Assembly: GCA_011523635.1 (NCBI GenBank)
Contig: WTGI01000067.1
Coordinates: forward strand, 1-64,000
Reading direction: 5' to 3'
Origin: Acidimicrobiia bacterium
Lineage (GTDB): Bacteria > Actinomycetota > Acidimicrobiia > Spongiisociales > Spongiisociaceae
DNA length: 64,000 nucleotides
In this document: piece after piece, positions 24,635-40,960 of the stretch
Position numbering within the stretch: the stretch's first letter is position 1
Layout of the letters: each line of letters starts with the position of its first letter
Made by a program: the position numbers and the translations under genes
Notes under the pieces: model-generated
Told to the model about the DNA's origin: nothing
The model's input: the letters and a program-made list of their open reading frames with translations, nothing else
Databases searched by the model: none

Positions 24635-27600
24635 ATGCTGAAGCTGGAGAACATCGAGGCCGGCGCTCTTGTGGAGGGACTGCTGCCTGGCCGCCCGGTC
24701 ACCGTTATCGCCACCAAGTGGTACGGCGACAACGATTTGGAAGTCGTCTTCCAGGACTCCGAGAAGGCGCTGGACAGTACGCTCTTGTCCCGCAACGACG
24801 AGGACCGGCTGAGCTTGGCGGCTTCCGAGGACTCGTGGCCTCTGGACGGTGACGGGCGGCTGTTCAAGCTGGCGTCGGAGGCCCGGCGCATCAAGGCGGC
24901 TCACCTGTTCGACCCGTATGTAGCGGTAGAGGCCGCTGACATCGATCCGCTCCCACACCAGATCGAGGCCGTCTACCGCCAGATGATGCCCATCCAGCCC
25001 CTCCGATTCGTCCTAGCCGACGACCCTGGCGCCGGCAAGACCATCATGTCCGGCCTCTACATCCGGGAGCTGGCCATCCGCGGGGACGTCGAGCGGGTCC
25101 TGATCGTGGCGCCCGGCTCCCTGGTGGTTCAGTGGCAGGACGAGTTGTCGCAGCGGTTCCAGCTCCACTTCCGCATCCTCTCCAACGACATGGTGGAGAC
25201 CGCCCGCACCGGCAACCCGTTCACCGAGGAGAACCTCCTGATCGCCCGCCTCGACCAATTGGCGCGGCGTGACGATCTCCAGGAAAAGCTGTCCGCTTCA
25301 CGCTGGGATTTGGTGGTGGTGGACGAGGCCCACAAGATGTCGGCCCACTATTACGGGAGGAAGCTCAACAAGACCAAGCGCTACCAACTCGGCGAGCGCC
25401 TCCGCGACCTCACCCGCCACCTCCTGCTGCTCACCGCCACGCCGCACAGCGGCAAGCAGGAGAGCTACATGTTGTTCCTCGCCCTGCTGGATCAGGATAC
25501 GTTCGGGGGTCGGCTGAGAGGAGGTGAGGTGCCGGACGCCTCCCATCTGATGCGCCGCAATCTCAAGGAGAGATTGCTGACCTTCGACGGGAAGCCCCTG
25601 TTCCCCGAGCGGAGGGCGCATTCGGTCAAGTACGACCTCTCGCCGCCCGAACAGCATCTATACGACGAGGTGACCGACTACGTCCGCCACGGCATGGACC
25701 TGGCCAAGCAGATCGAGCAGAAGAACCGCCGCCGCGGCCTGGTGGTGGGCTTCGCCCTCGCCGCGCTACAGCGCCGGCTGGCATCTTCGCCCCACGCGAT
25801 CTACCGCTCGCTGCGCCGGCGCCGCGAACGACTCCAGAAACGCTTGGAGGAACTGGAGGCCATAGCCGAGGGTCGGGAGGTGGCCGATCCGCTGCTCAAA
25901 GGCCTGTCGGAGGATGACCTGGCCTTCTTCGACTACGACGACTTCGACGATGAGCAGATCGACGAGATGGAGACCGAGGTCATCGACCAGGCCACCGCGG
26001 CGGAGACCGTCCCTGAACTCCAGAAGGAGATCGAGACCCTCGGCCGTCTCGTGGCCATCGCCGCCGAGGTCCGCAGGGCCGGCACCGACACCAAATGGGA
26101 GGAACTGTCCACCGTCCTCCAATCGGAGCACATGAACGACCCCGGCGGGACGAGGCGCAAGATCATCGTGTTCACCGAACACAAGGACACCCTCGACTAC
26201 CTGGAGCACCGCATCGTGGGGTTGCTCGGCAGGCGGGAGCGGGTGGTGGTGATCCACGGCAGCGTCAACCGGGAGAACCGCCGCCACCGCCAGGACGCCT
26301 TCATCAACGACCCCGAGGTGCAGGTGATGGTGGCCACCGACGCCGCCGGGGAAGGCGTCAACCTGCAGCGGGCCAACCTGATGGTCAACTACGACCTTCC
26401 CTGGAATCCCAACCGGATCGAGCAGCGCTTCGGGCGCATCCACCGGATCGGCCAGACCGAGGTGTGCCACCTGTGGAACCTGGTGGCCCACAACACACGG
26501 GAGGGGGCGGTGTTCATCCGTCTCCTGGACAAGATCGAGGAGCAACGCAAGGCGCTCGGCGGCCAGGTCTACGACGTGCTCGGGGACTCGGTGATCGACC
26601 GCCAGCTGAGGGACCTGCTCATCGAGGCGATCCGCTACGGCGACCGTCCCGAGGTGAGAGCCCGCCGGGACCAGGTCATCAACAACGACATAGGGGAGCA
26701 GATCAGGAACCTGGTCGACGAGCGGGCCCTCGCCATCGGACGGATCGGGGACGGGGACATCCAGGAGATCCGGGACGACATGGAGCGCGCCAAGCTCCGC
26801 AAGCTACAGCCCGGGTTCATCTCGATGTTCTTCATCGAGGCGCTGCGGAGGTTCGGGGGACGCATCGTGGAGCGCGAGAAGGGTCGCTTCGAGATCACCC
26901 GCGTGCCCGGGATCGTCCGCCAACGCGCCAAAGAGACCGGATCGGGCATGGAGCTGCACCGCCGGTACGAGCGGGTCACCTTCGAGAAGCACCTGGCGGA
27001 TGTCCCCGGTCGGCCCAGGGCGGCGTTGCTGGCCCTTGGCCATCCCCTGCTCGAGGCCGTGGTTGACGCGGTCCTCGACCGTCACGGTTCGGTCCTCCAG
27101 CGGGGGACCGTGCTCGTGGATCCCCAGGCCACCGAAGGCCGGCTCCGGGCGCTGGTACAGATCGAGCACCTCATCAAGGACGGTTCGGGTCGGGACGTGT
27201 CGAGGCGCTACTGGACCGTCGAGATGCCCACCGAAGGCGAATCCGAAGAGACCGGCGCAGCCCGCCACCACGACCTCCGCCCGATCGAGGAAGACGAACG
27301 GGACCTCGTAGCGTCGCTCCTGGAGCAGAGCCGGATCGACACGATGCTGTCCGACCACGCCCGGCGCTTCGCCATCACTGATCTATGCGGCCCCCACCTC
27401 GACGAGATCAGGCGGTCGACCGAGCATCGGGTCGGGAAGGTACGGGCCGGCGTGGATCAACGCCTGAAGGAACGGATCCGCTACTGGGACACCTACCAGC
27501 ACGAGGTGAAACAGGCCCAGGGGACAAGGCCGAAAGGCGGCTTCACGGCCGGCCACGCCCAGAACTTCGCCGACGATCTGGCCGCGAGGCGGGAGCAACG

Positions 27601-28120
27601 GAATCTCGAACTCGACCGGGAACTCCAACTCTCCAGCCGACCGCCCGACATAGTGGGCGGCGCGATCGTGGTTCCCCAAGGCCTGCTGGACCGCCTCGCC
27701 GGAACACAGCAACCGGCCCCAACCGCCCACGCCCGAGACGTGGCCGAGGTCGACCGCCGGGCAGTAGATGCGGTCCTGGCAACCGAGCAGGCTCTCGGTC
27801 GGAAGCCGAAGGAGATGCCCCACAACAACGAGGGCTACGACATCGAGAGCCGCGACCCCGACACCGGCGACCTCTACTTCATAGAGGTCAAGGGCCGGAT
27901 CGAGAGCGCCGACACCGTCACGGTCAGCCGAAGCCAGATCATCCACTCCCAGAACTCACCCGACCGCTTCATCCTCGCCGTGATCGAAGTCCCCGAAGAT
28001 CGCACCGCCCAGCCGACCGTCCGCTACGTACGCCGTCCCTTCGAGGGTGTGGAGGTCGGCTACCGCAAGTACTCGATCAACTTCGCCCTGTCCGAGTTCA
28101 CCTTCGAGGTTCCGTCATAG
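24635..28120 (+). CDS. SNF2-family helicase with C-terminal DUF3883-like nuclease fold (defence)
   Basis: A 1161-aa superfamily 2 helicase/translocase. Walker A is DDPGAGKT at about residue 130, the DEAH box is VVDEAHKMS near 229, and TATPHSGK is motif III. The C-terminal lobe ends with ATDAAGEGVNLQRA and RFGRIHRIGQ near 600. The last ~100 residues resemble DUF3883: NNEGYDIESRD then FIEVKGRI, a possible D...ExK nuclease-like core. Start is ATG. It opens the accessory island and, with the methylase at 34898 and the DUF499 ATPase at 37676, matches DISARM-related defence arrays, but the three genes are separated here by 6.8 kb. It is GC-rich like the host. Confidence 0.88.
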   Translation: MLKLENIEAGALVEGLLPGRPVTVIATKWYGDNDLEVVFQDSEKALDSTLLSRNDEDRLSLAASEDSWPLDGDGRLFKLASEARRIKAAHLFDPYVAVEAADIDPLPHQIEAVYRQMMPIQPLRFVLADDPGAGKTIMSGLYIRELAIRGDVERVLIVAPGSLVVQWQDELSQRFQLHFRILSNDMVETARTGNPFTEENLLIARLDQLARRDDLQEKLSASRWDLVVVDEAHKMSAHYYGRKLNKTKRYQLGERLRDLTRHLLLLTATPHSGKQESYMLFLALLDQDTFGGRLRGGEVPDASHLMRRNLKERLLTFDGKPLFPERRAHSVKYDLSPPEQHLYDEVTDYVRHGMDLAKQIEQKNRRRGLVVGFALAALQRRLASSPHAIYRSLRRRRERLQKRLEELEAIAEGREVADPLLKGLSEDDLAFFDYDDFDDEQIDEMETEVIDQATAAETVPELQKEIETLGRLVAIAAEVRRAGTDTKWEELSTVLQSEHMNDPGGTRRKIIVFTEHKDTLDYLEHRIVGLLGRRERVVVIHGSVNRENRRHRQDAFINDPEVQVMVATDAAGEGVNLQRANLMVNYDLPWNPNRIEQRFGRIHRIGQTEVCHLWNLVAHNTREGAVFIRLLDKIEEQRKALGGQVYDVLGDSVIDRQLRDLLIEAIRYGDRPEVRARRDQVINNDIGEQIRNLVDERALAIGRIGDGDIQEIRDDMERAKLRKLQPGFISMFFIEALRRFGGRIVEREKGRFEITRVPGIVRQRAKETGSGMELHRRYERVTFEKHLADVPGRPRAALLALGHPLLEAVVDAVLDRHGSVLQRGTVLVDPQATEGRLRALVQIEHLIKDGSGRDVSRRYWTVEMPTEGESEETGAARHHDLRPIEEDERDLVASLLEQSRIDTMLSDHARRFAITDLCGPHLDEIRRSTEHRVGKVRAGVDQRLKERIRYWDTYQHEVKQAQGTRPKGGFTAGHAQNFADDLAARREQRNLELDRELQLSSRPPDIVGGAIVVPQGLLDRLAGTQQPAPTAHARDVAEVDRRAVDAVLATEQALGRKPKEMPHNNEGYDIESRDPDTGDLYFIEVKGRIESADTVTVSRSQIIHSQNSPDRFILAVIEVPEDRTAQPTVRYVRRPFEGVEVGYRKYSINFALSEFTFEVPS

Positions 28121-28476
28121 GCCGACACGAGGACCTGGCCTGACCGGGGAAGCACCTGCCAGGATCCATTCAAGTTCTAATCCCGCTCTACTCCCGTCGA
28201 TCAAAACGCACCCTGACCTGGGAGTTTGCTGGCCTCAAGTCCTTAGCTCGTACTAATCGGGTTCTATTTGAGGGGGTACCAGACACTAGGAGGCACCCAT
28301 GACCACGACCACGGCCAGCTGACTTATGAGGAGATTATCCGTGATCTACATAAACTCCATAACTTGAGGTAAGCCCTGTTGATATGGACCGTTTCGACAC
28401 TCGTAAGGACACTTGCCTGCCTGACCCCTAGCCCCACCGAAGCAGCCCTCCCCGCATGGCCGTGGAATCTGCGGTC
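28121..28476. other. Intergenic stretch with a possible gene remnant
   Basis: These 356 bases contain no complete gene. A perfect AGGAGG (28288-28293) precedes an ATG at 28299 that encodes only MTTTTAS before a stop at 28322. In the frame shifted by one base, a protein-like tail (HDHDHGQLTYEEIIRDLH, ending at TAA 28370-28372) is open but lacks a start codon. This looks like a small gene broken by a frameshift. A leader peptide is less likely because no plus-strand gene follows. Confidence 0.35.
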
Positions 28477-28725
28477 TCAAAGCAGCCACTTGTAGCGACG
28501 CAACCCGGGTTCCGAGTGGAATGCCAGGTTCTCGAACCGGTCCACGAACAAGACGAGGGGTTCTCCGGACGTGTCGTATCCGGCGTACAGGTCGACATTG
28601 GGGCGCTCAGGTTGATCCCTGTGTATCGACAGTCTCATCACCTTCTCCGGGAACCGCAGCCCGGTCCACATCATGGAAGGCGACGCCGCGGTTGCATGCC
28701 GAGGTGCGATATGGGGCCTTGCCAA
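28477..28725 (-). CDS. Small hypothetical protein, 82 aa
   Basis: Unrecognised. A TTG start 10 bp after the upstream 95-aa gene gives 82 residues; internal ATG codons in SMMWTGLRF could shorten it to about 65. The core (VMRLSIHRDQPERPNVDLY then GEPLVLFVDRFENLAF) is predicted to be mainly beta strand and is charged like a soluble protein. It is co-oriented and closely spaced with 28736-29023, so the two probably form one unit. The two-small-gene layout inside a defence island resembles toxin-antitoxin pairs, but no toxin family is recognised. Confidence 0.5.
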   Translation of the reverse strand: MARPHIAPRHATAASPSMMWTGLRFPEKVMRLSIHRDQPERPNVDLYAGYDTSGEPLVLFVDRFENLAFHSEPGLRRYKWLL

Positions 28726-28735
28726 TCAGAGTCAC

Positions 28736-29023
28736 CTATGCGGTAACGGTCAGCAACCTCTGCACTTCGACCCGGCGGTTCGAATGGACCAGTTCCAGGA
28801 GGTGGTGGCAATCGTCGGGAGGCCGGGAGAGTATGTGCTGAGCCGCCCTGGACGGAGTCAGTCGGTTGAGAATGGTCCGCCAGTCCTCGTCCGTGTAGCT
28901 GTCGGCGATCGCATCCGCCATGCGCCTACCGCGTTCCCACGCCTCGGGGCCGGCAGGTCGCCAGTTGTTCGGGTCGCGACCCAACTCGGCGATGCGCTTG
29001 ATCTCTTCTTCTGTATGCGGCAC
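28736..29023 (-). CDS. Small hypothetical protein, 95 aa
   Basis: Unrecognised 95-aa acidic, mostly helical protein (EEEIKRIAELGRDPNNW, then YTDEDWRTILNRLTPSRAAQ). The GTG start has no Shine-Dalgarno. A -10-like TACAAT ends 6 nt before it, so the mRNA is probably leaderless. It is followed after 10 bp by the 82-aa gene. It may be the first gene of a two-gene module of unknown role. Confidence 0.6.
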   Translation of the reverse strand: MPHTEEEIKRIAELGRDPNNWRPAGPEAWERGRRMADAIADSYTDEDWRTILNRLTPSRAAQHILSRPPDDCHHLLELVHSNRRVEVQRLLTVTA

Positions 29024-29029
29024 GAGAAG

Positions 29030-29035
29030 ATTGTA
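29030..29035 (-). promoter_or_regulatory. -10 box of a probable leaderless promoter
   Basis: TACAAT on the minus strand ends exactly 6 nt before the GTG at 29023, and no ribosome-binding site is present. The same geometry recurs at 41126 and 44423. Confidence 0.45.
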
Positions 29036-29074
29036 GCCCGCGCCCGTACCGACGATCAGGCCGAGGACTCGGTT

Positions 29075-29749
29075 CTAGTTGATGAGTACGGCTGCCAACA
29101 AAGCTGTTCCGGTCGCGACGAGAGCGCGTGCTACATCGTGGATGGCTGACTCCGTCAGGTTGGACTGTTGGATGCTTGCCGCTCGGTTTGCTCTCGTGGC
29201 TCTCACCAGAGCAGCGCCCGCCCTTTCCAGCGGAACCACGTCCTCCGCACCCAAAAGGTGCCGTCTCCTGGGCTTATCGGCGTAGAGGGCCGCCCCGACC
29301 GCAGCAGCTCCATACACCAGCGAAGCGATAACCAACAAGACCACGACGACTCGCCAGATTCCGCGAGATGGTGCGAGGACAAGGGTGACGGCGTTCCCTG
29401 CTAGCACCAAGGCGGCGGTCTGCGCGACACCGCGTGCCTTCGATTCCAATCCCCGGACACGGTCCTGGTCGGTCTCGAACACGGCATAGAGCAGGTGTAC
29501 GATCGCGGCACGTTCTTCAGCGGCTTGCTTCTTCAGTCTCTTGTGCCACTGCTCTTCCCCGGCCTCCAACTCCTCGGTTGTGTCTTGGGGAACTCTCGGA
29601 TTGGCGCGCAGGGCCGGGATCAACGTGGGACGGATAAGCCTCCAGCACCACGAACAGATCGACCTGCTGACCGACCATAACTGCTGTAACGGTAGGTTCC
29701 AGTCTGACCTACCGGTGTTCTCTCTCGGACGCCCCCTATCGCCTGACAT
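29075..29749 (-). CDS. Membrane protein in RiPP cluster
   Basis: Unrecognised 224-aa protein with three likely membrane segments at about residues 108-127, 132-156 and 205-223. A soluble, charged helical region (about 56-105) precedes them. The ATG start lies within the last codons of the ATP-grasp gene (14-nt overlap), so expression is tied to the RiPP genes. It lacks ABC-transporter or protease motifs. In this position it may export the peptide, give immunity, or be a membrane target of the product. The N-terminal 50 residues carry several Trp and Cys and could be over-extended. Confidence 0.68.
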   Translation of the reverse strand: MSGDRGRPRENTGRSDWNLPLQQLWSVSRSICSWCWRLIRPTLIPALRANPRVPQDTTEELEAGEEQWHKRLKKQAAEERAAIVHLLYAVFETDQDRVRGLESKARGVAQTAALVLAGNAVTLVLAPSRGIWRVVVVLLVIASLVYGAAAVGAALYADKPRRRHLLGAEDVVPLERAGAALVRATRANRAASIQQSNLTESAIHDVARALVATGTALLAAVLIN

Positions 29750-30683
29750 CGGAAACGAGACCAGCTAGTGCACGACCGATCAACTGCGAGGGCATCCGTT
29801 CCAGTACATCGTCGAGAAACCCGAACTCACCGGATGGATTGCACTCCAGGAACACGGGACCGCCGTGTTCACGTGACCCGAGAATAAAGTCGAACGCTCC
29901 GTAATCAAGCCCGAATTCGCGCACGAAGGCCACGGCAAGCTGGGTGGTTCGCTGATCCGGGTACCAACGAGACCACTCGCCAGCGCTGTCTGTGCGCCAG
30001 TCCAAGGCACTTCTGGGACGCATCGCCGCCACCACCGAGTCTCCGATCACGAACAACCGTGCGTCATGTGTCCCCTCTATCCGCTGCTGCACCAGAACAG
30101 GCTGGCTCTGCCAGGATCCGGGGTCGGCGGCGAGGGCTTGCTGTGCGTCCATCGTGAAGACGAATGATTGATCCGAAAACTCCCAGAATGCCGCTGCGGC
30201 AGACTTCACCACGCAAGGCCCATGTGCGGCGTCGAACGCTACTGCACGATCCCGATCCGTCGTCAGCAGGGTCAGGGGCACATCGAACCCGAGGCGTCCG
30301 GCAAGGGCCAACTGCCGTACCTTCGACTCGGCGTGGTAGGTACGGGCGGGGTCGTTGAACCAGCGCGTCCGCACATGTTCAAAGAGATGGAGCCAGGTGA
30401 GCCACTGACGACGGGCAACCAGAATGTCGTCGATCTCTCCCGCGGTCGGCGAATGGCCGAAGGGATCCCGTTCCGGGAGGAACTGTCTCAGCCACGCCAC
30501 GCGCGGGGCTTCTCGAACCTGCCACTTGAGTTGATCCAACGTGGCCGACATGTCCCCGATCGAGGCCAGGCTCTCGCGGTTCACCCGCTTGATACGGGTC
30601 TGGGGCTCGTTCTCACCGAGCCACCTGATCACCCGGTCGATCGAGTAGTCCCGCTCGTTCGTCAGCACGAGCAGGTCGGTCAT
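29736..30683 (-). CDS. ATP-grasp RiPP maturase (graspetide synthetase-like)
   Basis: An ATP-grasp ligase of 315 aa of the MvdD/RimK-like type. In known graspetides these enzymes form ester or amide links between Ser/Thr/Lys and Asp/Glu side chains of a precursor. It opens with MTDLLVLTNERDYSIDRVI and has PCVVKSAAAAFWEF (ATP-binding lysine strand), QQRIEGTHDARLFVIGD, and the Mg-binding end YGAFDFILG...PVFLECNPSGEFGF. The ATG at 30683 overlaps the stop of the 64-aa precursor gene (ATGA), which fixes the start. No methyltransferase is adjacent, unlike some actinobacterial graspetide loci. Confidence 0.85.
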   Translation of the reverse strand: MTDLLVLTNERDYSIDRVIRWLGENEPQTRIKRVNRESLASIGDMSATLDQLKWQVREAPRVAWLRQFLPERDPFGHSPTAGEIDDILVARRQWLTWLHLFEHVRTRWFNDPARTYHAESKVRQLALAGRLGFDVPLTLLTTDRDRAVAFDAAHGPCVVKSAAAAFWEFSDQSFVFTMDAQQALAADPGSWQSQPVLVQQRIEGTHDARLFVIGDSVVAAMRPRSALDWRTDSAGEWSRWYPDQRTTQLAVAFVREFGLDYGAFDFILGSREHGGPVFLECNPSGEFGFLDDVLERMPSQLIGRALAGLVSDVRR

Positions 30684-30874
30684 GTGCCCTTCTGGTCCTC
30701 GCCGGTCTCGATGTCGCACTTCTTGGTTTCCCCGATGAGTGGGGAGTCCCAGGAGTCCTGCCATACACCGTCATCGAGTATCTGGGAGGTCTGGGTGTTT
30801 TCCTGATACCGGGAGATGGGCGGTGTGGTGGCGTCGCGCCTTGTGCGAAGCTCCTTGAGCAGATCCGCATGCAT
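30680..30874 (-). CDS. Putative graspetide precursor peptide, 64 aa
   Basis: A short hydrophilic peptide encoded immediately before the ATP-grasp gene with an ATGA overlap. A near-ideal GGAGGTG lies 5 nt before its ATG. The N-terminus (MHADLLKELRTRRDATTPP) looks like a leader. From about residue 25 the peptide is packed with acceptors and donors: Thr27, Thr29, Ser30, Ser41, Ser44, Thr50, Thr57 and Lys51/52/62 against Glu25, Asp34/35/40/43, Glu49, Asp54, Glu56, Glu59 and Asp60, plus one Cys53. That composition is what side-chain macrocyclisation by an ATP-grasp ligase needs. The exact leader/core boundary cannot be seen. Confidence 0.8.
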   Translation of the reverse strand: MHADLLKELRTRRDATTPPISRYQENTQTSQILDDGVWQDSWDSPLIGETKKCDIETGEDQKGT

Positions 30875-30883
30875 GGTTTCACC

Positions 30884-31443
30884 TCCTAGCCGCCGCTCTC
30901 CGAGAGATCACGGATGCGTCGAGGGGATCCGCACGGCCCCAGCAACCGTAGCACGGCGGCGGTTGTTAATCCTTTGATAGGGATAGACACCATATAGCGT
31001 AGTGTAGTGTGCGGGATGATCTGAGGGAGGGCGTACGATCTCTCCCACCGCCGGACACACCAGGACGATTATTGCACTCTCGCATCCCGGCGTGCGGCCA
31101 GCGACCAGGGAGCCGCGCTCTTTGTTCTCATCACGTAGACGCCCGGACGTTAGGGACGCCCGAAGACAAGGGAGCATTCCTATCGTCGTTGGTCTAGCAC
31201 CGACCGCATGGGACGTTGGCGGCGGAGGCGGGAGTTTAGCGGTAGCAACCGGATACACCGCCGCCTCATCACCATTCTCGGGTCTACGGCGCCCCGGCTA
31301 TGAGTCCGAGGGGTTGCCACGTGCAGGAAGCGAGAGACCGCCTGCAGCCGACTGTGTAGTAGCATCCACAACATTGCGGCAATCCGCCGGATGACCTTGC
31401 CTAACCCGTTCAGAGCATACCGCGAGCCCCTGGAGAACCCCTC
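30884..31443. other. 560-bp divergent intergenic region
   Basis: No gene is supported between the RiPP precursor and the SIR2 gene; open frames here have no start sites or family features. A lower-GC patch at about 30960-31010 (TTGTTAATCC, TATAGCGTAGTG) is the best place for the RiPP promoter. The divergent SIR2-HerA promoter should lie in the right half, but no consensus boxes are convincing. Confidence 0.4.
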
Positions 31444-32643
31444 TTGATTTCGATTCACAATCCCGATCGCTACATGGCCGACCTACGACAAATCCTGTCC
31501 CAAGGTCGCAAGCGTATTGGCATCTTGATCGGTGCAGGTGCGCCAACAGCCATTCGTGTTGATGAACACAACCGGCTCACTGAGTTGGATGGCCATCCAC
31601 TAATACCGGACATAGCCGGCCTGACGGATGCCGTAATCGACGCCCTAACTGAAAAGGATCGGACAACCATCGATAGCCTGAGAGACGAAATCGACGAGCC
31701 TATCAATATCGAGGTCATCCTGACACGAGTTCGGCGCCTCGCTCAGGTGGTCGGAGACTCGCGGATCCATGGTCTAACCGGCAACGACTACGAACAGTTG
31801 GGACAGGCCATCTGCCAGGCGATCGGCGATAAGGTGCGCGTATCACTTCCTAAGGGTCCCAATCCGTTTTCACAACTTGTAGCGTGGATAGCAGGCACTC
31901 ACAGGGCACACGCTGTCGAAATCTTCACTCCCAACTACGATCTACTGATTGAGGAGGCCTTTGAACGAGCGCGCGTTCCTTACTTCGACGGCTTCGCAGG
32001 TGCCCATCAACCTTTCTTTGACGCTGCAGGTGTTTCGTCGGATGAACTACCTGCTCGGTGGTCGCGAGTGTGGAAGCTACACGGTTCACTTGGGTGGAGA
32101 ATAGTCAATAGCCTTGTTGTTAGAAGTGGGGGCCGAGACACTACCGAACTAATCTATCCTGATCATCTCAAGTATGACCAAGTGACACGCCTACCCTACT
32201 CTGCGCTATTCGAGCGGCTTCGTCAGTTTGTAAGCACCCCCGATACTCTTCTCTTGAGTTCTGGTTTCTCGTTCAGAGATGCCCATATATGTGCTATCCT
32301 TGATGAGGCGTTAGCGGTAAATACCCACACTGCGATACTCGCATTTCAACACCTTCCGATTACCGATGAAGAGCCAGCATCTGAGTTGGCGTATGCGCGC
32401 CCTAACATGAGCGTGTACGCGCGCGATGGCGCAATAATCTCTGGTGTCGGTGGTGTTTGGAGGCCTGGGCAACATGCGAATGTAGATTGGCTTGATATTC
32501 GGCGCACGTTTTGGCGTGATTTCAAGGCAGATGGATCTGGCGGTTTCCTACTCGGTGACTTCAATATGCTGGCCCAGTTTCTCGCTCTGACTCAAGCACA
32601 GCAGGTCGTGTCGCAACTTCCGGACGAGGAGTCGGATGGCTGA
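31444..32643 (+). CDS. SIR2-domain defence protein (partner of HerA)
   Basis: A 399-aa SIR2-fold protein of the kind that degrades NAD+ on phage infection. The nucleotide loop is GILIGAGAP (residues 26-34). The conserved Asn-Asp is in FTPNYDLLIE (161-170), the catalytic histidine is His213 in WKLHGSLGW, and SGFSFRDAHI (273-282) closes the site. Start is TTG with GGAG upstream. It overlaps the HerA gene by 8 nt, giving the known two-gene SIR2-HerA (Nezha-type) arrangement, in which HerA and SIR2 form a large complex. Base composition is lower in GC than in the host-like flanks, which suggests acquisition. Confidence 0.9.
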   Translation: MISIHNPDRYMADLRQILSQGRKRIGILIGAGAPTAIRVDEHNRLTELDGHPLIPDIAGLTDAVIDALTEKDRTTIDSLRDEIDEPINIEVILTRVRRLAQVVGDSRIHGLTGNDYEQLGQAICQAIGDKVRVSLPKGPNPFSQLVAWIAGTHRAHAVEIFTPNYDLLIEEAFERARVPYFDGFAGAHQPFFDAAGVSSDELPARWSRVWKLHGSLGWRIVNSLVVRSGGRDTTELIYPDHLKYDQVTRLPYSALFERLRQFVSTPDTLLLSSGFSFRDAHICAILDEALAVNTHTAILAFQHLPITDEEPASELAYARPNMSVYARDGAIISGVGGVWRPGQHANVDWLDIRRTFWRDFKADGSGGFLLGDFNMLAQFLALTQAQQVVSQLPDEESDG

Positions 32644-34510
32644 CACACCGGGCAAAGAACGCCTATACGAGGCTCCAGGCCTGAACTACGATCCAACCTA
32701 TCTGGGTGAGATCGCGTCCGTGTCCGGTGCGGCGATTACTGTTCGCCTAGCGCGGTCGGTTGCGTCGGGTCTGTCAATCATACGTGGTCGTACCTATAAG
32801 ATAGGGCAGGTCGGCAGCTTCGTACGTGTACCACAGGGGTATCAAGATTTGTTCGGCATCGTGTCTCAGGTTGGCGCATCGGCAGCTCCGGAGCAGGTCG
32901 AGATGACAGTTGACTCTGGACGATGGATGAAGGTGGAGATGGTAGGAGAGACCATCGGTGGAGCCTTCGAGCGAGGCGTTAGTCAGTATCCGAATATCGG
33001 CGATTCCGTTCATCTAGCCGTTGAGGAGCATCTACGAAGAATATACGCAGGACCAGGCCGAGGATCGGTCGCGATCGGGACTATGTCAAGTGCTGAGGGT
33101 ATATCAGCACAGGTGTCTCTCAATGAATTGGTAACCCGGCACTCTGCGGTCTTTGGATCCACCGGATCTGGAAAATCAACAACAATAGCGAGCCTCCTCA
33201 GGGCAATTACTAACACAACAGATGGTAACACCTTATATCCGAATGCTCGAGTGGTAATATTAGACATACATGGTGAGTATACATCTCCACTAGCCGATGT
33301 TGCACAAGTGTTCAGTATTGAACCACAACATGGTGAACATCGTCTGGTCATTCCCTACTGGGCAGTCAATACAGATGATCTTCTTGATTTCTTGACAGGA
33401 GGCGTGAAGGACAATCAAAGAACGGCCTTCACGGACAAGATATTTGATCTTCGTAAAGCTTCTCACGACAATCAGTGCTTTCCCGGAGTCAATACGGCGT
33501 CTATAACAGTTGATACACCGTTGCCGTTTAGCTTGAAGCGGCTGTGGTATGACCTTATTGACTTCGAGATTATGACGTTCGACGGTCCGGACCGTGATCA
33601 GCCTACACGTCAGGACGCCGGTGATGCCGAAAAATTGGTAAGACCTACTTATAGGCCACATGCTATGGGGACAGCTGGACCGTTCCTGAATCAACATGCG
33701 TTTGGTATTCAACGGCCACTGAACCTTCTACGCTCACGGCTCCTCGATCGTCGTTATGACTTTCTTCTTCGACCAGGGTGTTGGGAACCGGATCTCGACG
33801 GACTTGCAGAAGAAGATCTAGACGGCCTTCTAAAGGCGTGGTTGGGTGGCGCGAATCCAATTACGATCTTGGATTTGTCGGGAGTGCCTAGTAGCGTTCT
33901 AGAACGGCTGGTGGGGTCGATACTCAACATCGTATACGAGGCCCTATTCTGGAGTCGTGAAAAGACTGAAGGCGGGGTGGAGCGGCCGCTACTGATTGTA
34001 ATGGAGGAAGCACATCGGTATCTGTCACAGAAGTCAGGGTCACTGGCCTCAGAGGTCGTTCAAAGGATAGCAAAGGAAGGCCGTAAGTATGGAGTTGGCG
34101 CGATGGTGGTGAGCCAGCGTCCGTCTGAAGTTGACGAGACCATATTGTCACAATGTGGCACCTTCTTCGCACTAAGACTGACCAATCCTAAAGACCGGCA
34201 GCGGGTGCAAGGCACGCTTCCCGATGGTTTAGCTGGACTTCATGACGTTTTGCCAATACTCAAGACTGGTGAAGCCATCGTGTCAGGTGAGGCAGCACAG
34301 CTACCTATGCGTTGTAGAGTCACGTTGCCGATCAAGAAGTACCGTCCGAAGAGTGAGGACCCAGAAGTGAGCGTGAAGTGGTCACTAGAAAAGCGCGACG
34401 AAGGGTACGATCGGGTAGTAGCGTCTTGGCGAGCACAGAATCCTCTGGCAGTAGTCGAGGACCTAGGCTTAGTTCGCGTACCTGTTGAGGATGAAGGAAC
34501 CGAAGACTGA
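32636..34510 (+). CDS. herA: HerA-like hexameric ATPase of SIR2-HerA system
   Basis: A HerA/FtsK-superfamily ATPase, 624 aa. An N-terminal HAS-barrel-like region (about 20-130) precedes Walker A GSTGSGKST (174-182). Walker B is LLIVMEEAHRYL (452-463), followed by QRIAKEGRKYGV and VSQRPSEVDETILSQ typical of HerA. It starts inside the SIR2 gene and is followed 10 nt later by the KTSC gene. It should assemble as a hexamer that controls the SIR2 NADase. Codon use is A/T-rich like SIR2. Confidence 0.93.
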   Translation: MADTPGKERLYEAPGLNYDPTYLGEIASVSGAAITVRLARSVASGLSIIRGRTYKIGQVGSFVRVPQGYQDLFGIVSQVGASAAPEQVEMTVDSGRWMKVEMVGETIGGAFERGVSQYPNIGDSVHLAVEEHLRRIYAGPGRGSVAIGTMSSAEGISAQVSLNELVTRHSAVFGSTGSGKSTTIASLLRAITNTTDGNTLYPNARVVILDIHGEYTSPLADVAQVFSIEPQHGEHRLVIPYWAVNTDDLLDFLTGGVKDNQRTAFTDKIFDLRKASHDNQCFPGVNTASITVDTPLPFSLKRLWYDLIDFEIMTFDGPDRDQPTRQDAGDAEKLVRPTYRPHAMGTAGPFLNQHAFGIQRPLNLLRSRLLDRRYDFLLRPGCWEPDLDGLAEEDLDGLLKAWLGGANPITILDLSGVPSSVLERLVGSILNIVYEALFWSREKTEGGVERPLLIVMEEAHRYLSQKSGSLASEVVQRIAKEGRKYGVGAMVVSQRPSEVDETILSQCGTFFALRLTNPKDRQRVQGTLPDGLAGLHDVLPILKTGEAIVSGEAAQLPMRCRVTLPIKKYRPKSEDPEVSVKWSLEKRDEGYDRVVASWRAQNPLAVVEDLGLVRVPVEDEGTED

Positions 34511-34520
34511 GGAGGTAGGC

Positions 34521-34733
34521 GTGCTAAAGCACGGAGTGGTGTCTTCAAATATAAGTGCAATCGGGTACGATCCAGCTACGGAAACTCTTGAAGTTGAGTT
34601 CCTAAGCGGAGCAGTCTATCAATACTATGGCGTTCCACAATATCTACATGACGAGATAATGAAGGCACCATCGAAGGGCCAGTTCCTCAATATGTACATT
34701 AAGAATAGCTACGCATATTCACGAGTCGGATAG
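34521..34733 (+). CDS. KTSC domain small protein, 70 aa
   Basis: A one-domain KTSC-family protein. The pattern VVSSNISAIGYDPATETL, EVEFLSGAVYQYYGVP and SKGQFLNMYIKNSYAY is typical of the family, whose biochemical role is poorly known and which has been linked to RNA or nucleic-acid binding. I chose the GTG at 34521 because AGGAGG sits 5 nt upstream; an in-frame ATG at 34485 would overlap HerA and lacks a site. It is the third gene of the SIR2-HerA operon and may be an accessory or regulator. Confidence 0.85.
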   Translation: MLKHGVVSSNISAIGYDPATETLEVEFLSGAVYQYYGVPQYLHDEIMKAPSKGQFLNMYIKNSYAYSRVG

Positions 34734-34897
34734 CGTAACGGGAAGGAATGCAGCCCTGCCCGACACGGCCGATTAGTAATGAAGATCACGAGAAGGTGTT
34801 TGTGTTGGTGCGGTGATGGATTTACAGAGTTCTAGTATAACAGAGTGTTGTATCAGAAACTGTTTGATAGCCCGGTAGCCGATAGTTAGGTGAATGG

Positions 34898-37672
34898 ATG
34901 AACTACAAGAAGAAGCTGATTGAGGTGGCGTTACCGCTGGACGCAATCAGTCGAGCGTCGGTTCGAGAGAAGCAGATCCGGCATGGACATCCTTCGTCAT
35001 TGCATCAATGGTGGGCACGACGCCCCCTGGTAGCGGCTCGAGCGGTCTTGTGGGCGTCCATGGTAGATGATCCATCCGCCCATCCGGACCGTTTCCCGAC
35101 AGCGGAAGAGCAGGAGGCTGAGCGTCGGCGACTGTTCGGGATCCTTGAGAGGCTCGTAGTGTGGGAGGACTCCAATGATCCTCAGGTTCTGCGTGATGCT
35201 CGGGCCGAGATCTCGGGATCGTGTGGCGTTGAGATTCCCAAAGTGCTGGATCCCTTCTGCGGAGGCGGTGCGATTCCGCTTGAGGCACGTCGTCTGGGCC
35301 TGCCTGCTTACGGTGGTGATCTGAATCCGGTGGCTGTATTGCTGTCTAAGGCATTGGTGGAGATTCCTTCTCGATTTGACACAAGCTATCCCGTTAACCC
35401 AGGTTCAGGGTCCATGTCTGGGACAACCCTATGGGAACGTTCTCAGGGACTTGCCGAAGATATCATTTTTTATGGTCAATGGATAAGAGATCAGGTGTCG
35501 GAGCGAATCGGTCACCTATATCCGAAGCCTAGATTACCTCTCGAAGAGGGTGGTGGAGAGGCGGATGTGATCGCCTGGATCTGGGCACGTACCGTGCGGT
35601 CTCCTGATCCGTCGTGGAATAGTTATGTTCCGCTGGTTCGTTCCTGGGTACTTCGCAAAGGAAATCGAAAGAGGCCTGTAGCCTGGATCGAGCCACAGCT
35701 TGATCGTTCAAGTCGGGAGGTAAGCTACCGTATAAGAGAGGGTGGCGATCCTATAGCAGGAACGGTAGACCGAAGGGGAGCGACATGTCTGGCTACTGGA
35801 TCGTCGATCGGGTTCAAGTATATACGACAGCAGGGTCTGTCGGGGCTTCTGCGCAGACAGTTGATCGCCGTGGCGGTAAAGGGTAGGCAGGGTCGCTTTT
35901 ACATGGCACCAAGTCCACAACCCCATCCACCTCCGCCACGGTGGGCGCCTCATGCTGCACTCCCCAGACGGACCCTAGGTTTCCGGGTACAGCAGTATGG
36001 AATGCTTGAATGGGCGGACTTATTCACTGATCGTCAACTTGTAGCAATCTCCGATTTCTCTCACATGTTGATAGAGGTTCACGCGGTGGTTGAGCGACAT
36101 GCTCACGAAGCAGGGATGGTCGACGATGAGATCCGACTCCGAGATGGCGGTTCCGGCGCGACCGCCTATGCAGACGCAGTCGTTACCTATCTGGCGCTTG
36201 CTCTAGGTAAGTTGGCGGACCTAAATAACTCGCTGGTTCGCTGGGGATCGGTTACGCAATGCCCTCATCAATTGTTCGGTAGGCAGTCAATCCCTATGGT
36301 CTGGGACTTTGCTGAGGCAAATCCGTTAGGCTTATCGTCGGGTTCATGGGATGTAATACTGAGAGGTGTGATGAGAACGTTCCAATCTAAGGCTTGGCCT
36401 TTGGAAGGTATAGAATCATACGTCCGTATAGCTCAGCGGGATGCGGTGAAGCGGATCGGGGAAGTCGATTCCCCGGTAATTTGTACCGATCCCCCATATT
36501 ATGACAATATCTCATATGCTGATCTATCAGATTTCTTCTACGTTTGGCTACGGCATAGTCTCGCTAAAGTATATCCTGAGGAGATGGCGACAGTATTAAC
36601 ACCGAAGTCTGAAGAACTTATAGCAAATCCATATCGGATCGGATCACGTGAGAAGGCGAAGCTACACTTCGAGGACGGAATCGCCACGGTCCTGCAACAC
36701 GTTGCTAAAGGACAAAACCCAGGGTATCCGGCTACGATCTTCTACGCCTTCAAGCAGCAGGAGACTAGAAAGGGAGCAACAGCCTCGACAGGCTGGGAAA
36801 CCTTCCTGCAAGGATTGGTCGACGCGGGACTGCAGGTTACAGCCACTTGGCCTATAAGAACCGAGAGAGGAGCAAGGCTTGTGGCACAGGGCACCGCTGC
36901 GCTCGCGTCTTCGGTCCTGGTGGCCTGTCGCCCACGCAACGAGGGTGCCCATTTGGCGACTCGGCGTGAGTTCTTGGATGCTCTAGCAACCGAACTACCC
37001 CCGGCTATTCGTCTCCTGCAGAGTCAGTCGATTGCTCCAGTGGACATGGCACAGTCCGCGATCGGACCTGGTATGCAAGTGTTTTCGCGCTATGCCAGGG
37101 TATTGGAAGCCGACGGGACACCGATGCCGGTCCGGACTGCGCTCGCTCTGATCAACGACCGTTTGGAGGAGGTCCTGTCGTCAGAGGAGACCGAGTTCGA
37201 CGGTGACACGCGCTGGGCGCTGACTTGGTATGAGCAGTTTGCCCGTGACCATGGTCCGTTCGGGGATGCAGAAACGCTCGCCAAGGCGAAGAATACGTCG
37301 GTGGCCGGGGTGGTTCAGGCTGGCATCGCGGACTTGAAGGCTGGCAAGGTTCGGTTGGTCGAACGGGATGAACTGGATGAGGGGTGGGATCCACTTGCGG
37401 ACAGACGGATCACTGTGTGGGAGGTGGCGCAGCATTTGATCGCTCGCCTGGATAGCTCCGAGGCCGCCGCTGCAGACCTCCTGCAAAAGGTCGGCGGCGG
37501 TATGGGAGATCGCGCCCGCCGTCTCACCTACCTGCTGTACCAGATCGCTGACCGTAAGGGCCGGTCCCGCGATGCGGTGGCTTACAACGGGCTGATTCAA
37601 GCCTGGCACGACATTGAACGCCATGCAGCGAGGAGCGAGGGTCCTGTGGCGCAGACTTTCGAAGGGATGTAG
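34898..37672 (+). CDS. DUF1156-type adenine DNA methyltransferase (defence)
   Basis: A large 924-aa DNA methylase. The DUF1156-like N-terminus reads LIEVALPLDAISRASVREK then HQWWARRPLVAARAV. SAM motif I is VLDPFCGGGAIPLEARRLG (117-134), and the catalytic motif TDPPYYDNISYADLSDFF starts near residue 529. The C-terminal ~250 residues are helical and probably recognise target or partner. ATG start with AGGTGA upstream. It ends 3 nt before the DUF499 gene. The first two-thirds of the gene is much lower in GC than the last third, hinting at a recombination joint. It should modify host DNA within a restriction-like system. Confidence 0.9.
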   Translation: MNYKKKLIEVALPLDAISRASVREKQIRHGHPSSLHQWWARRPLVAARAVLWASMVDDPSAHPDRFPTAEEQEAERRRLFGILERLVVWEDSNDPQVLRDARAEISGSCGVEIPKVLDPFCGGGAIPLEARRLGLPAYGGDLNPVAVLLSKALVEIPSRFDTSYPVNPGSGSMSGTTLWERSQGLAEDIIFYGQWIRDQVSERIGHLYPKPRLPLEEGGGEADVIAWIWARTVRSPDPSWNSYVPLVRSWVLRKGNRKRPVAWIEPQLDRSSREVSYRIREGGDPIAGTVDRRGATCLATGSSIGFKYIRQQGLSGLLRRQLIAVAVKGRQGRFYMAPSPQPHPPPPRWAPHAALPRRTLGFRVQQYGMLEWADLFTDRQLVAISDFSHMLIEVHAVVERHAHEAGMVDDEIRLRDGGSGATAYADAVVTYLALALGKLADLNNSLVRWGSVTQCPHQLFGRQSIPMVWDFAEANPLGLSSGSWDVILRGVMRTFQSKAWPLEGIESYVRIAQRDAVKRIGEVDSPVICTDPPYYDNISYADLSDFFYVWLRHSLAKVYPEEMATVLTPKSEELIANPYRIGSREKAKLHFEDGIATVLQHVAKGQNPGYPATIFYAFKQQETRKGATASTGWETFLQGLVDAGLQVTATWPIRTERGARLVAQGTAALASSVLVACRPRNEGAHLATRREFLDALATELPPAIRLLQSQSIAPVDMAQSAIGPGMQVFSRYARVLEADGTPMPVRTALALINDRLEEVLSSEETEFDGDTRWALTWYEQFARDHGPFGDAETLAKAKNTSVAGVVQAGIADLKAGKVRLVERDELDEGWDPLADRRITVWEVAQHLIARLDSSEAAAADLLQKVGGGMGDRARRLTYLLYQIADRKGRSRDAVAYNGLIQAWHDIERHAARSEGPVAQTFEGM

Positions 37673-37675
37673 ACA

Positions 37676-40600
37676 ATGGCTGTGACCAACCACGAGCGGG
37701 TGGGTAAGGCGCTGACGTTGGTGCGGGATGCCATCCGTCCCGAGGTGGAGAAGATCTGGCGGTCACGGTATGGGATGCGGTGGCTGGATCGAGTGAACCA
37801 GCGGTTGCACCATCAGGACCGTTTCGGCGATCCGGATGATCTGGTCTTCTTGCTTAAGGGTATGGATGCCACGTGGGATCAATTCTTCCGTGACACTCTG
37901 TCGCGGTCGACCCGGAGCTACCTGCACCTGTTGTGGGATGCCCGCAACGATTGGGCGCATAACAAGAGGTTCAGTTCGGAGCACACGCTGCGCGTCCTGG
38001 ACCACTGCGAGATGATGCTCGAGGCGTTCCGGGCAAGCGAGTCCGCTAAACAGGTTCAGGAACTCAAGCAGAGCCTTCGGCGGCAGGTGTTTGCGGAGGA
38101 GCGGCGTACGGCGGAGCGTCGGGCGGCCGCCGAGGCGACGAAGGGCGAACCGCTGGCGGGTCTCAAGCCGTGGCGGGAGGTGGTGACGCCACATCGCGAC
38201 GTGCGGGAGGGCCGCTTCGCACAGGCGGAGTTCGCGGCTGATCTTCGCCAGGTGGTGAGGGGCGAGGCCGCTCCCGAGTATGGCGATCCGGTGAGCTTCT
38301 TTGAGCGCACGTTTATCACCGACGGTCTGGGGGACTTGATACGCACCGCGGCGAGGCGGCTGTCAGGAAAGGGTGGCGATCCCGTTGTGGAGCTCCAGAC
38401 CGGGTTCGGTGGTGGTAAGACCCACAGCCTCATTGCTCTGTATCACCTTGCGTCAGATACTTCCCGGTTGAGGGGTGTCGACGAAGCGCTCGCCGAGGAC
38501 GATCTCTCGGTTCCGTCCGGAGTGCGGCGGGCGGTCTTCACCGGGCAGTGGGCCGAATCGGCGTCGGTCCACAAGAAGGAGGACGGAGTCGAGGTTCACA
38601 CCATGTGGGGGGACATCGCCTACCAGTTGGGTGGCGCCGAGGCGTACCGGATGGTGGAGGATGCCGACCGCAACGCGGCCAATCCCGGCGAGAGCCTCGT
38701 GGACCTCTTCAAGCGGTACGGGCCGGTCATGATCCTCATCGACGAGTGGGTGGCTTACGCACGCGGTCTGCCGATGTCTCCCGAGGAGGGGCGGCGTCCG
38801 GCCGGTGACTTCGACACCCAGTTCACCTTTGCTCAAGCGCTTACTGAGGCGGTGGCCGCGGTCGACAACGCGCTCCTGGTGGTTTCCGTTCCCGAGTCGA
38901 GCGATCCCAGCCACGACAGTATGGAAGTCGGGGGAGAGAAGGGCCGGAAGGCGCTCGAGCGGTTGCGCCACGTGCTGGGTCGCAAGGCTGCGCAATGGCG
39001 CCCGGCATCATCCGAGGAGTCCTTCGAGATCGTCCGGCGTCGCCTGTTCGAACCCATAGAGCCGTCGCTGGCCCGTCATCGGGACGCGGTGGTCAAGGCG
39101 TACCACAACCTGTACATAGACAATGTCGGGGAGTTCCCGTCGGAGACCAGGGAACGCGACTATGAGCGGCGCATGAACGCCGCCTACCCGATCCATCCCG
39201 AGCTGTTCGACCGCCTCTACCAGGACTGGTCGACGCTGGAACGGTTCCAGCGGACCCGCGGGGTGCTGCGGTTGATGGCGAGCGTCATCTCGGTGCTGTG
39301 GGACAGGGACGACCGGTCGCTGATGATCATGCCCGGGGTGGTCCCGATGGACTCGGCCAAAGTGGTTCCCGAGCTGACCCGGTATCTGACCGACCAGTGG
39401 AAACCGATCATCGACGCCGATGTCGACGGTTCCGGGTCGCTTCCGCAGCGCTTCGACCGGGACCGCAAGAACCTGGGGAGGTACGGGGCCTGTCGCCGGG
39501 TGGCCCGATCCACCTACCTCGGATCCGCGCCTCTGCCCACCAATCAGAGGGGTATAGACCGGACCCGCATCGTGCTGGGGTGCGTGCAGCCGGGGGAGAG
39601 GCCCGGCGTGTTCGGGGATGCGCTCCGCCACCTGGCTGACGAGGCCACCTACCTCTACAACCAGCAACTGCGCTACTGGTACGACACCAAGCCGTCGCTG
39701 ACCCGGCTGGCAGCGGACCGGGCATTGTCCCGCTTCGGCGACGACGATGCCGATGAGTACTTGCGCTTGCACATCCAGAAGATGCGGCGGGCCAACCCGC
39801 TCGGCGGGGTTCACGTGTTCCCGGACAGCCCCGGCGACGTGCCGGACGAGGACGACTCGGTCCGGCTGGTGGTCGTCCATCCGGAGAGCCCTTTCGAGCG
39901 GGGCGACACATCTCCTGCCATCGAGACTGCCCAAACCATCCTGGACGAGCGGAGGGGCGGGCGGCGGATCAACCGCAACATGCTGGTCTTCCTTGCCGCC
40001 GAGAAGGCCCGCGTGCCCGAGTTGCGCCAGGCGATCCGCAGCCGGCTGGCCTGGCAATCGATCCTCGACGAGCAAGGAGAGCACGACCTCAACCTCACCC
40101 CCGCCGACGTCAACCAGGCGAAGACCAGACTTGAGGAGTCCGACCGGACCGTGGATCTGCGGATCGGAGAGACCTTCTCCCAGGTGCTCTACCCAGTCCA
40201 GTCCCCGGGACAAGCCGACATCCGGTGGTCGTCGGTCCGGGTGAGCGGATCGGCCGGCCTCTTCGAACGGGTGGCCAACAAGCTGGAGTCGTCGCAGCAT
40301 CTGATCGGCGCCTATGCAGGCACGCTCGTACGGCGCGACCTCGACCGTCCCGAAGCTCCACTTTGGGACGGAGACCACATCGGTGTCCGAACGCTCTGGT
40401 CCTACTACTGCCGCTACCTCTACATGCCTCGCCTGGCCGGCTTCGGCGTGCTCGCCGCAGCCATCGCCCGGGGAGTGGCCGACCTGAACTGGCAACACGA
40501 CACCTTCGCCTACGCCGACACCCACGACCCCGAAGGGGACCGATACCCGGGCCTCGTGACCGCCGCCCAGGTGGAGGTGGCCCAAAGCCTCACCGCAGTG

Positions 40601-40960
40601 CTGGTCCGCCCGGACAGGGCCATGGCCCAACTGGACGCCGAGTCACCATCCGAAGAAGAAGACGAGGTCCCCGATGACTTCGGGGACGCCTGGCACCCCG
40701 GACCCGACCCGCCCCGACCTCCAGCCAGGCAACAACCCACCCGGTTCTACGGCCGCAAGGAACTGGACACGGTCCGCGCCATCCGCGACCTCGGCACCAT
40801 CCTCGAAGAGGTCACCAAACACCTGGACGGAACAGGCAAGGAAGTCACCCTCACCTTGGAGATCAACGCCAGCTCCGACGGCTACGACACCCGCACCCAA
40901 CGCATAGTCAAGGAAAACGCCACCCAACTCGGCTTCGACTCCCACGAGTTCGAGGATTGA
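37676..40960 (+). CDS. DUF499 ATPase with HEPN/Swt1-like N-terminus (defence)
   Basis: A 1094-aa ATPase of the DUF499 family found beside DUF1156 methylases. Walker A is TGFGGGKTHS at about residue 242, and MILIDEWVAYARG near 350 is a Walker B-like strand. The first ~150 residues form a separate helical domain containing ARNDWAH (Arg90 to His95), an Rx4H pattern seen in HEPN ribonucleases and Swt1-like domains. The C-terminal tail from about 990 is acidic and proline-rich before a final beta-rich segment. It is translationally adjacent to the methylase. It may gate an effector or be a motor with its own RNase toxin. Confidence 0.88.
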   Translation: MAVTNHERVGKALTLVRDAIRPEVEKIWRSRYGMRWLDRVNQRLHHQDRFGDPDDLVFLLKGMDATWDQFFRDTLSRSTRSYLHLLWDARNDWAHNKRFSSEHTLRVLDHCEMMLEAFRASESAKQVQELKQSLRRQVFAEERRTAERRAAAEATKGEPLAGLKPWREVVTPHRDVREGRFAQAEFAADLRQVVRGEAAPEYGDPVSFFERTFITDGLGDLIRTAARRLSGKGGDPVVELQTGFGGGKTHSLIALYHLASDTSRLRGVDEALAEDDLSVPSGVRRAVFTGQWAESASVHKKEDGVEVHTMWGDIAYQLGGAEAYRMVEDADRNAANPGESLVDLFKRYGPVMILIDEWVAYARGLPMSPEEGRRPAGDFDTQFTFAQALTEAVAAVDNALLVVSVPESSDPSHDSMEVGGEKGRKALERLRHVLGRKAAQWRPASSEESFEIVRRRLFEPIEPSLARHRDAVVKAYHNLYIDNVGEFPSETRERDYERRMNAAYPIHPELFDRLYQDWSTLERFQRTRGVLRLMASVISVLWDRDDRSLMIMPGVVPMDSAKVVPELTRYLTDQWKPIIDADVDGSGSLPQRFDRDRKNLGRYGACRRVARSTYLGSAPLPTNQRGIDRTRIVLGCVQPGERPGVFGDALRHLADEATYLYNQQLRYWYDTKPSLTRLAADRALSRFGDDDADEYLRLHIQKMRRANPLGGVHVFPDSPGDVPDEDDSVRLVVVHPESPFERGDTSPAIETAQTILDERRGGRRINRNMLVFLAAEKARVPELRQAIRSRLAWQSILDEQGEHDLNLTPADVNQAKTRLEESDRTVDLRIGETFSQVLYPVQSPGQADIRWSSVRVSGSAGLFERVANKLESSQHLIGAYAGTLVRRDLDRPEAPLWDGDHIGVRTLWSYYCRYLYMPRLAGFGVLAAAIARGVADLNWQHDTFAYADTHDPEGDRYPGLVTAAQVEVAQSLTAVLVRPDRAMAQLDAESPSEEEDEVPDDFGDAWHPGPDPPRPPARQQPTRFYGRKELDTVRAIRDLGTILEEVTKHLDGTGKEVTLTLEINASSDGYDTRTQRIVKENATQLGFDSHEFED

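Follow-up and report, generated by a model that had tools for sequence, protein, structure and literature searches.

The three coupled genes on the minus strand at 29075–30874 of the window (the whole 64,000-nucleotide stretch of Acidimicrobiia DNA analysed here) encode, in this order, a short peptide, an ATP-grasp ligase and a three-span membrane protein, and they form a cassette of about 2.3 kb that is horizontally mobile and moves as one unit. The gene families involved make it highly probable that the locus is of the graspetide type, for which ring formation is predicted. Taken as a whole, it may be a mobile three-gene graspetide module whose cyclised peptide acts together with the coupled membrane protein, a member of a set related to PycTM; to this complete reading we give slightly less than even weight. 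Beyond the original prediction, the module proved to be mobile, present in different phyla and carried on plasmids and a phage contig, and its set includes PycTM-like membrane proteins.

Organisation of the locus

The precursor gene (30680–30874, minus strand) encodes a peptide of 64 aa, MHADLLKELRTRRDATTPPISRYQENTQTSQILDDGVWQDSWDSPLIGETKKCDIETGEDQKGT, with a leader of approximately residues 1–49 and a predicted core of residues 50–64, TKKCDIETGEDQKGT (30683–30727, minus strand). Its Shine-Dalgarno sequence AGGAGGTGA lies on the same strand at 30887–30879, with 7 nt between AGGAGG and the ATG. The precursor TGA (30682–30680) overlaps an ATG at 30683–30681, and because of this overlap the ligase is assigned to 29736–30683 (minus strand, 315 aa); a longer ORF starting at 30764 was rejected in favour of this start. 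The membrane protein of 224 aa, with three predicted spans, is encoded at 29075–29749 (minus strand), and its ORF shares 14 nt with the end of the ligase gene. The ORFs and coordinates bear out the predicted peptide, its Shine-Dalgarno sequence, the ATGA coupling to the ATP-grasp gene and the coupled three-span protein. No sigma-70-like promoter or convincing terminator was found at the module. Just downstream of it, a 95-aa minus-strand ORF (28736–29023) gave no family match above cut-off.

The ATP-grasp ligase

Profiles, structures and the ligase tree all place the enzyme among the MvdC/MvdD/SAV_5884-type ATP-grasp ligases. Its nearest NCBIfam model is TIGR04187 (GRASP_SAV_5884; 4e-36), where its 124.8 bits fall short of the curated cut-off of 350 bits, and further family matches are MvdC (7.5e-24) and MvdD (3.7e-23). 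The closest graspetide synthetases in the PDB are 5ig8 (4.6e-20), listed as an ATP grasp ligase, and CdnC (1.1e-18), with an MvdD-like protein also among the best structures. These matches, TIGR04187 and 5ig8 above all, uphold the assignment to the graspetides; the original description of the ligase as MvdD-like holds in the broad sense of MvdC/MvdD-like enzymes, but its nearest model is a different one. The ligases have in common invariant catalytic-type residues such as DWR and an acidic F-x-E-x-N region. As had been predicted, no isoaspartyl (PIMT) methyltransferase was found among the adjacent genes scanned in the window and in the loci of its relatives. In the ligase tree the clade with tandem TKTxxxxExDD cores (the TKT set) stands next to both groups with ETGED cores; each group is starred, and the union of the two ETGED groups is weak (38/95). 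One of the genomes, G001, has on a separate contig (L036, 1401–2327) another ATP-grasp gene, which is distantly related (about 28% identity).

The ATP-grasp family RimK is related (its Pfam model matches the ligase at 1.9e-8) and the PHROG annotation reads ribosomal protein S6 glutaminyl transferase, so that the enzyme might be imagined to add amino acids or a small molecule to the peptide with no cyclisation at all. We consider this extremely unlikely: the graspetide synthetases outscore the RimK models by far, and both donor and acceptor residues are kept in the core.

The precursor and its core

Neither the Pfam nor the NCBIfam scans returned a model matching the window's precursor. The peptide is nevertheless a real conserved gene and no chance ORF, because its profile matches peptides in other genomes (8e-39 to 5e-20), its dN/dS is below 1 and its C-terminus is invariant in 15 homologues. 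In four close pairs dN/dS was 0.05–0.43 for the peptide, the ligase and the membrane protein, and purifying selection acts on all three genes. The 15 homologues come from Actinobacteria, Alpha- and Gammaproteobacteria and one Mu-like phage contig, and in every one of their loci the ATP-grasp gene or its remains directly follow the precursor, as the original prediction had required of a true precursor–ligase pair. The first relatives found (ligase identity 37–91%) have directly upstream a peptide of 61–67 aa, a range that counts L034 from an internal GTG, ending in TKKxDxETGEDQKG.

The precursor profile gave five true matches in 395 genomes of the class and, in 396 genomes across the phylum, one further match outside the class (G418); matches in G093, G081, G489 and G628 were weak, did not cover the whole core and were dropped. 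The window's precursor had no tblastn match among plasmids or phages, and the rhizobial relatives surfaced via the ligase: searches of plasmids with it turned up Rhizobium, Agrobacterium, Martelella, Azospirillum and Mesorhizobium. Xenorhabdus was added with a rhizobial precursor as the query, and one viral contig (L058/L070) came to light through a DNA pattern for ETGEDQKG. The same gene order recurs in two phyla. Two of the plasmids, CP070278.1 (Dysgonomonadaceae zrk40) and NZ_CP066788.1 (Martelella lutilitoris), carry the same module and are of nearly equal length; the organism label of the former looks wrong.

Apart from the sister genome, the homologues are 33–63% identical to the window's peptide overall and weakly conserved outside a few landmarks. 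In the first part M1, L6, Y23 and W38 are invariant, the conserved leader landmarks being PPIxRY and W, and all 15 homologues end in [ST]KKxDxETGEDQK: residue 50 is always Ser or Thr, and K51, K52, D54, E56, T57, G58, E59, D60, Q61 and K62 do not vary. A conserved precursor with a leader and a core rich in donors and acceptors therefore adjoins the ligase in 15 loci. The claim of a new precursor type stands for the core sequence, which has no family model, but not for the class, which is not new. In register with TKTxxxxExDD, T50 and K52 fall at donor positions and E56, E59 and D60 near acceptor positions. By this register two nested links would be the likeliest ring pattern: T50 would be esterified to D60 or E59, and K52 would form an amide with E56, with a mass loss of 36 Da as the simplest prediction.

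Mobility of the cassette

The cassette is mobile, because its flanks are unrelated, its GC3 departs from that of its neighbours in several hosts, and it occupies plasmid sites and a site in a phage head operon. Between G034 and G089, which belong to different families, the DNA is 89% identical over 7425–9713 of L034, that is the module with short flanks; beyond this common block of only 2.3 kb the flanks do not align, bar one distant segment at 64%. The module's GC3 is about 0.50–0.55 against mostly 0.76–0.94 in the neighbours in L002, L054 and the phage contig L070, and transposases or integrases adjoin some other module loci. The window and its sister genome G001 have the module in common (29123–31011, 93%) and, as a separate block, HmaBC (86% over its best part), and the SIR2-HerA pair is missing from the G001 stretch. 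As dS between the two is lower for the module (0.11–0.18) than for HmaC (0.38), the module and HmaBC have different histories.

In the phage contig L070 the cassette lies in the operon running from portal to major-head, with a neck gene (phrog_26) on one side and a head maturation protease gene (phrog_328) on the other. Another gene of this contig (3485–4885) encodes a minor head protein whose C-terminal part resembles ADP-ribosyltransferases (phrog_802, phrog_3895).

Broken genes

Six of the 15 loci have a broken ATP-grasp gene. Nonsense codons interrupt it in L002 (TAG at codon 108) and in G089 (TAA at codon 57), and in both of these the membrane gene is intact; it is truncated in G013 and G418 and has suffered the insertion of an IS630 element in Xenorhabdus and of an IS66 element in Mesorhizobium. 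In Martelella it is the membrane gene that is frameshifted, with the peptide and ligase genes intact. Loss on either side therefore appears to be tolerated, bearing in mind that MAG errors could account for some of the single-base breaks. In G418 (L048, 3674–8267) the ligase gene stops short where the ORF of an RHS/YD-repeat protein begins.

The tight coupling of the genes, their location on mobile elements and the PycTM-related membrane proteins of the sister clade would all suit a toxin-antitoxin pair in which a toxic membrane protein is restrained by the modified peptide. The nonsense codons in L002 and G089 speak against such an arrangement: with the membrane gene intact, loss of the modification must be tolerated there, unless the unmodified peptide suffices. 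We regard this explanation as quite improbable. More generally, the tolerated losses mildly disfavour an immunity protein as well as a toxin that nothing but the modified peptide keeps in check, and they fit an activated effector or a dispensable product.

The membrane protein

The hydrophobic segments of the 224-aa protein lie near residues 108–126, 134–152 and 205–223. R97 and K104 are the only residues common to the aligned homologues, an R-x6-K pair just before the first span. Scans with Pfam, NCBIfam and PADLOC gave no model for this protein. Its AlphaFold model is all-helical (pLDDT 71.9), and a Foldseek comparison of this model with the PDB and with viral structures returned coiled-coil or helical noise but nothing at E<=0.001. 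The window-type membrane-protein profile found no further match in the 296 genomes of the phylum sampled.

The membrane proteins of the sister clade are another matter. The PADLOC model of PycTM, whose members are described as pore formers in the membrane that cyclic pyrimidines activate in the course of phage infection (PMC11224242), matches those of L062 (3e-5, residues 63–193), L052 (9.8e-5) and L071 (1.1e-4), and that of L090 at 9e-4. The nearest direct match among the window-type proteins is the homologue in L002 (E=0.011). In profile comparison with PycTM the membrane proteins of the TKT set reached 89.9%, the best of 31 decoys 0.5%, whereas the window-type proteins alone reached 2.2%, no better than decoys; a direct identification of the window's protein as PycTM was not upheld in this decoy test. 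Because of this difference, the case for a relationship to PycTM is good for the sister clade and indirect for the window's protein. The latter case runs through the TKT set, with which the window type agrees in position and topology, the profile comparison of the two giving 80.7% or 4.6% depending on the alignment.

Among 42 ligase loci of viral contigs, a downstream protein with R-x6-K and at least two spans occurs in L071–L074 (tandem TKTxxxxExDD), L080 (ETGED core) and L090; in none of the other loci was such a membrane gene found, and their precursors are mostly tgmA-like or unrecognised. Related graspetide-type ligases followed by membrane proteins, several matching PycTM, were seen in L052, L061, L062, L071–L074 and L090, with tandem TKTxxxxExDD cores wherever a precursor was seen. 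L061 is a Leptospira phage, and L074 has the same genes.

Discussion

In the window the three Hma genes are split (24635–40960): HmaA, the helicase of this defence system (24635–28120, plus strand; PDLC00659, 1381.6 bits), is separated by the graspetide module and a SIR2-HerA pair (SIR2 defence protein, 31444–32643, plus strand, 1.2e-152; HerA ATPase, 32636–34510, plus strand, 6.6e-159) from the DUF1156 methylase HmaB (34898–37672, plus strand, 5.5e-299) and the DUF499 ATPase HmaC (37676–40960, plus strand, 2.9e-289). Directly after HmaC, a TIR-domain protein (41138–42034; PF13676, 3.3e-9) is probably another defence gene. The defence-island position originally proposed is thus borne out by all of these genes. 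Across the module loci the defence neighbours include Hma/SIR2-HerA, HmaBC, SIR2, ABC-three-component and AbiE systems; they adjoin only about one third of the loci, and the neighbours in L002 are ordinary by the look of the genes. Defence islands also gather unrelated cargo. The pyrimidine cyclase PycC was not found among the neighbour genes of the window that were scanned.

The mechanism that we propose begins when the ATP-grasp ligase binds the leader in the region of its conserved PPIxRY and W. The ligase would then spend ATP in activating core Asp/Glu side chains and join them to Ser/Thr or Lys side chains. The cyclised peptide would work with the membrane protein, one of a set that is related to PycTM, the effector by which Pycsar disrupts membranes, and in the favoured version would control that protein in conflict with phages or other mobile elements. 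A mobile conflict or defence function has, in our judgement, a little more for it than against it, and control of a membrane effector by the peptide is a tentative, less probable refinement. A conflict module with an intracellular role is favoured, though unproven, because the cassette has no exporter, the core is invariant, phages and plasmids carry the module and its neighbourhoods are rich in defence genes. What this model explains least well is the fixed core beside membrane proteins that have diverged to 15–36% identity, as co-variation would be predicted if the membrane protein were the sole target of the peptide; the invariance of the core may reflect a target that is universal, or strict demands made by the ligase.

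The peptide might instead be exported after cyclisation and inhibit competitors or a protease, as a bacteriocin would, the membrane protein being its exporter or an immunity protein. Bacteriocins are often found in mobile gene neighbourhoods. All graspetides characterised up to Makarova et al. 2022 were protease inhibitors, and the same authors suggested that the cluster 18 membrane protein of the thuringinin loci serves in transport (PMC8939145). The cassette, however, has no ABC transporter, peptidase or signal sequence, and its core stays the same from phylum to phylum, whereas diversification is the rule for arms-race peptides. The Martelella plasmid, with a frameshifted membrane gene beside intact peptide and ligase genes, is also hard to reconcile with immunity if the producer itself is targeted. 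An exported product of this kind is therefore somewhat unlikely in our view; the toxin suggested by the original prediction is possible as a secreted product but is not favoured, given the missing exporter and peptidase and a core that does not diversify.

The precedent of protease inhibition (PMC8939145) would equally allow an intracellular role for the modified peptide as inhibitor of a protease of phage or host, for example a capsid maturation protease, with the membrane protein ancillary. The head maturation protease gene beside the cassette in L070 invites this thought, but that neighbour may just mark a tolerated insertion site; the core has no conserved specificity residue of the Phe/Leu/Tyr type, and the strict tie to a membrane protein would be left unexplained. 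We hold this explanation to be very unlikely.

Thousands of graspetide clusters have been predicted and few functions are known. As the module is small, mobile, present in different phyla and near-invariant in its core, work on one cassette could uncover the ring chemistry, the partner and the function together. If the membrane protein is an effector controlled by the peptide, ribosomal peptides of the RiPP class would be linked to effector-based phage defence, and a function would be offered for the uncharacterised membrane proteins of thuringinin-type loci. The boldest form of this idea, which we think doubtful, is that of a class of systems for conflict with phages or between mobile elements, spread across phyla by plasmids and phages, in which a side-chain-cyclised ribosomal peptide, and not a cyclic nucleotide, serves as the intracellular signal switching a PycTM-like membrane effector.

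Comparison with known systems

The closest known systems are the tandem-TKTxxxxExDD graspetides, the neighbouring clade in the ligase tree, which probably correspond to the thuringinin-like groups of Makarova et al. 2022 (cluster 13 with the cluster 18 membrane protein; PMC8939145). As in the window module, a precursor, a single ATP-grasp ligase and a small membrane protein are all directly adjacent, and the leader has P and Y/W landmarks followed by Thr/Lys donors before Glu/Asp acceptors. They differ in having two to four variable repeats of the tandem T-x-T...E-x-D-D kind where the window type has one invariant [ST]KKxDxETGEDQK core, and the window-type membrane proteins are the more divergent.

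The TIGR04187/tgmAB graspetides of actinobacteria, including the PIMT-associated graspimiditides (group 13), supply the closest NCBIfam ligase model and also have their precursor upstream of the ligase, and a RYxxxTQ-like leader segment is, by eye, common to them and the actinobacterial window-type members. Unlike them, the window module reaches 125 of the 350 bits, has another core and has no PIMT methyltransferase in the cluster; next to the tgmA-type loci of viral contigs, for their part, no such membrane gene was found. A near-invariant core in distant hosts is known from the RiPP cofactors mycofactocin and PQQ, from which the module differs in its chemistry, its lack of nearby redox enzymes and its sporadic, mobile occurrence.

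The graspetide class was already known, and it is the core type, its spread and the PycTM link that appear to be undescribed. The core type is absent from the NCBIfam and Pfam models, and neither a description of the module nor a PycTM partner for graspetides was found in the main texts of the openly searchable literature; Carter et al. 2026 or Ramesh et al. 2021 may already include this core.

Pycsar (PycC with PycTM) resembles the module in its effector side, as the sister-clade membrane proteins match PycTM and are similar in span order and size. The module differs in having no cyclase, the window's protein has no direct match, and a modified peptide stands at the membrane protein's side; judged by gene position, the graspetide would take the place that the cyclase holds in Pycsar.
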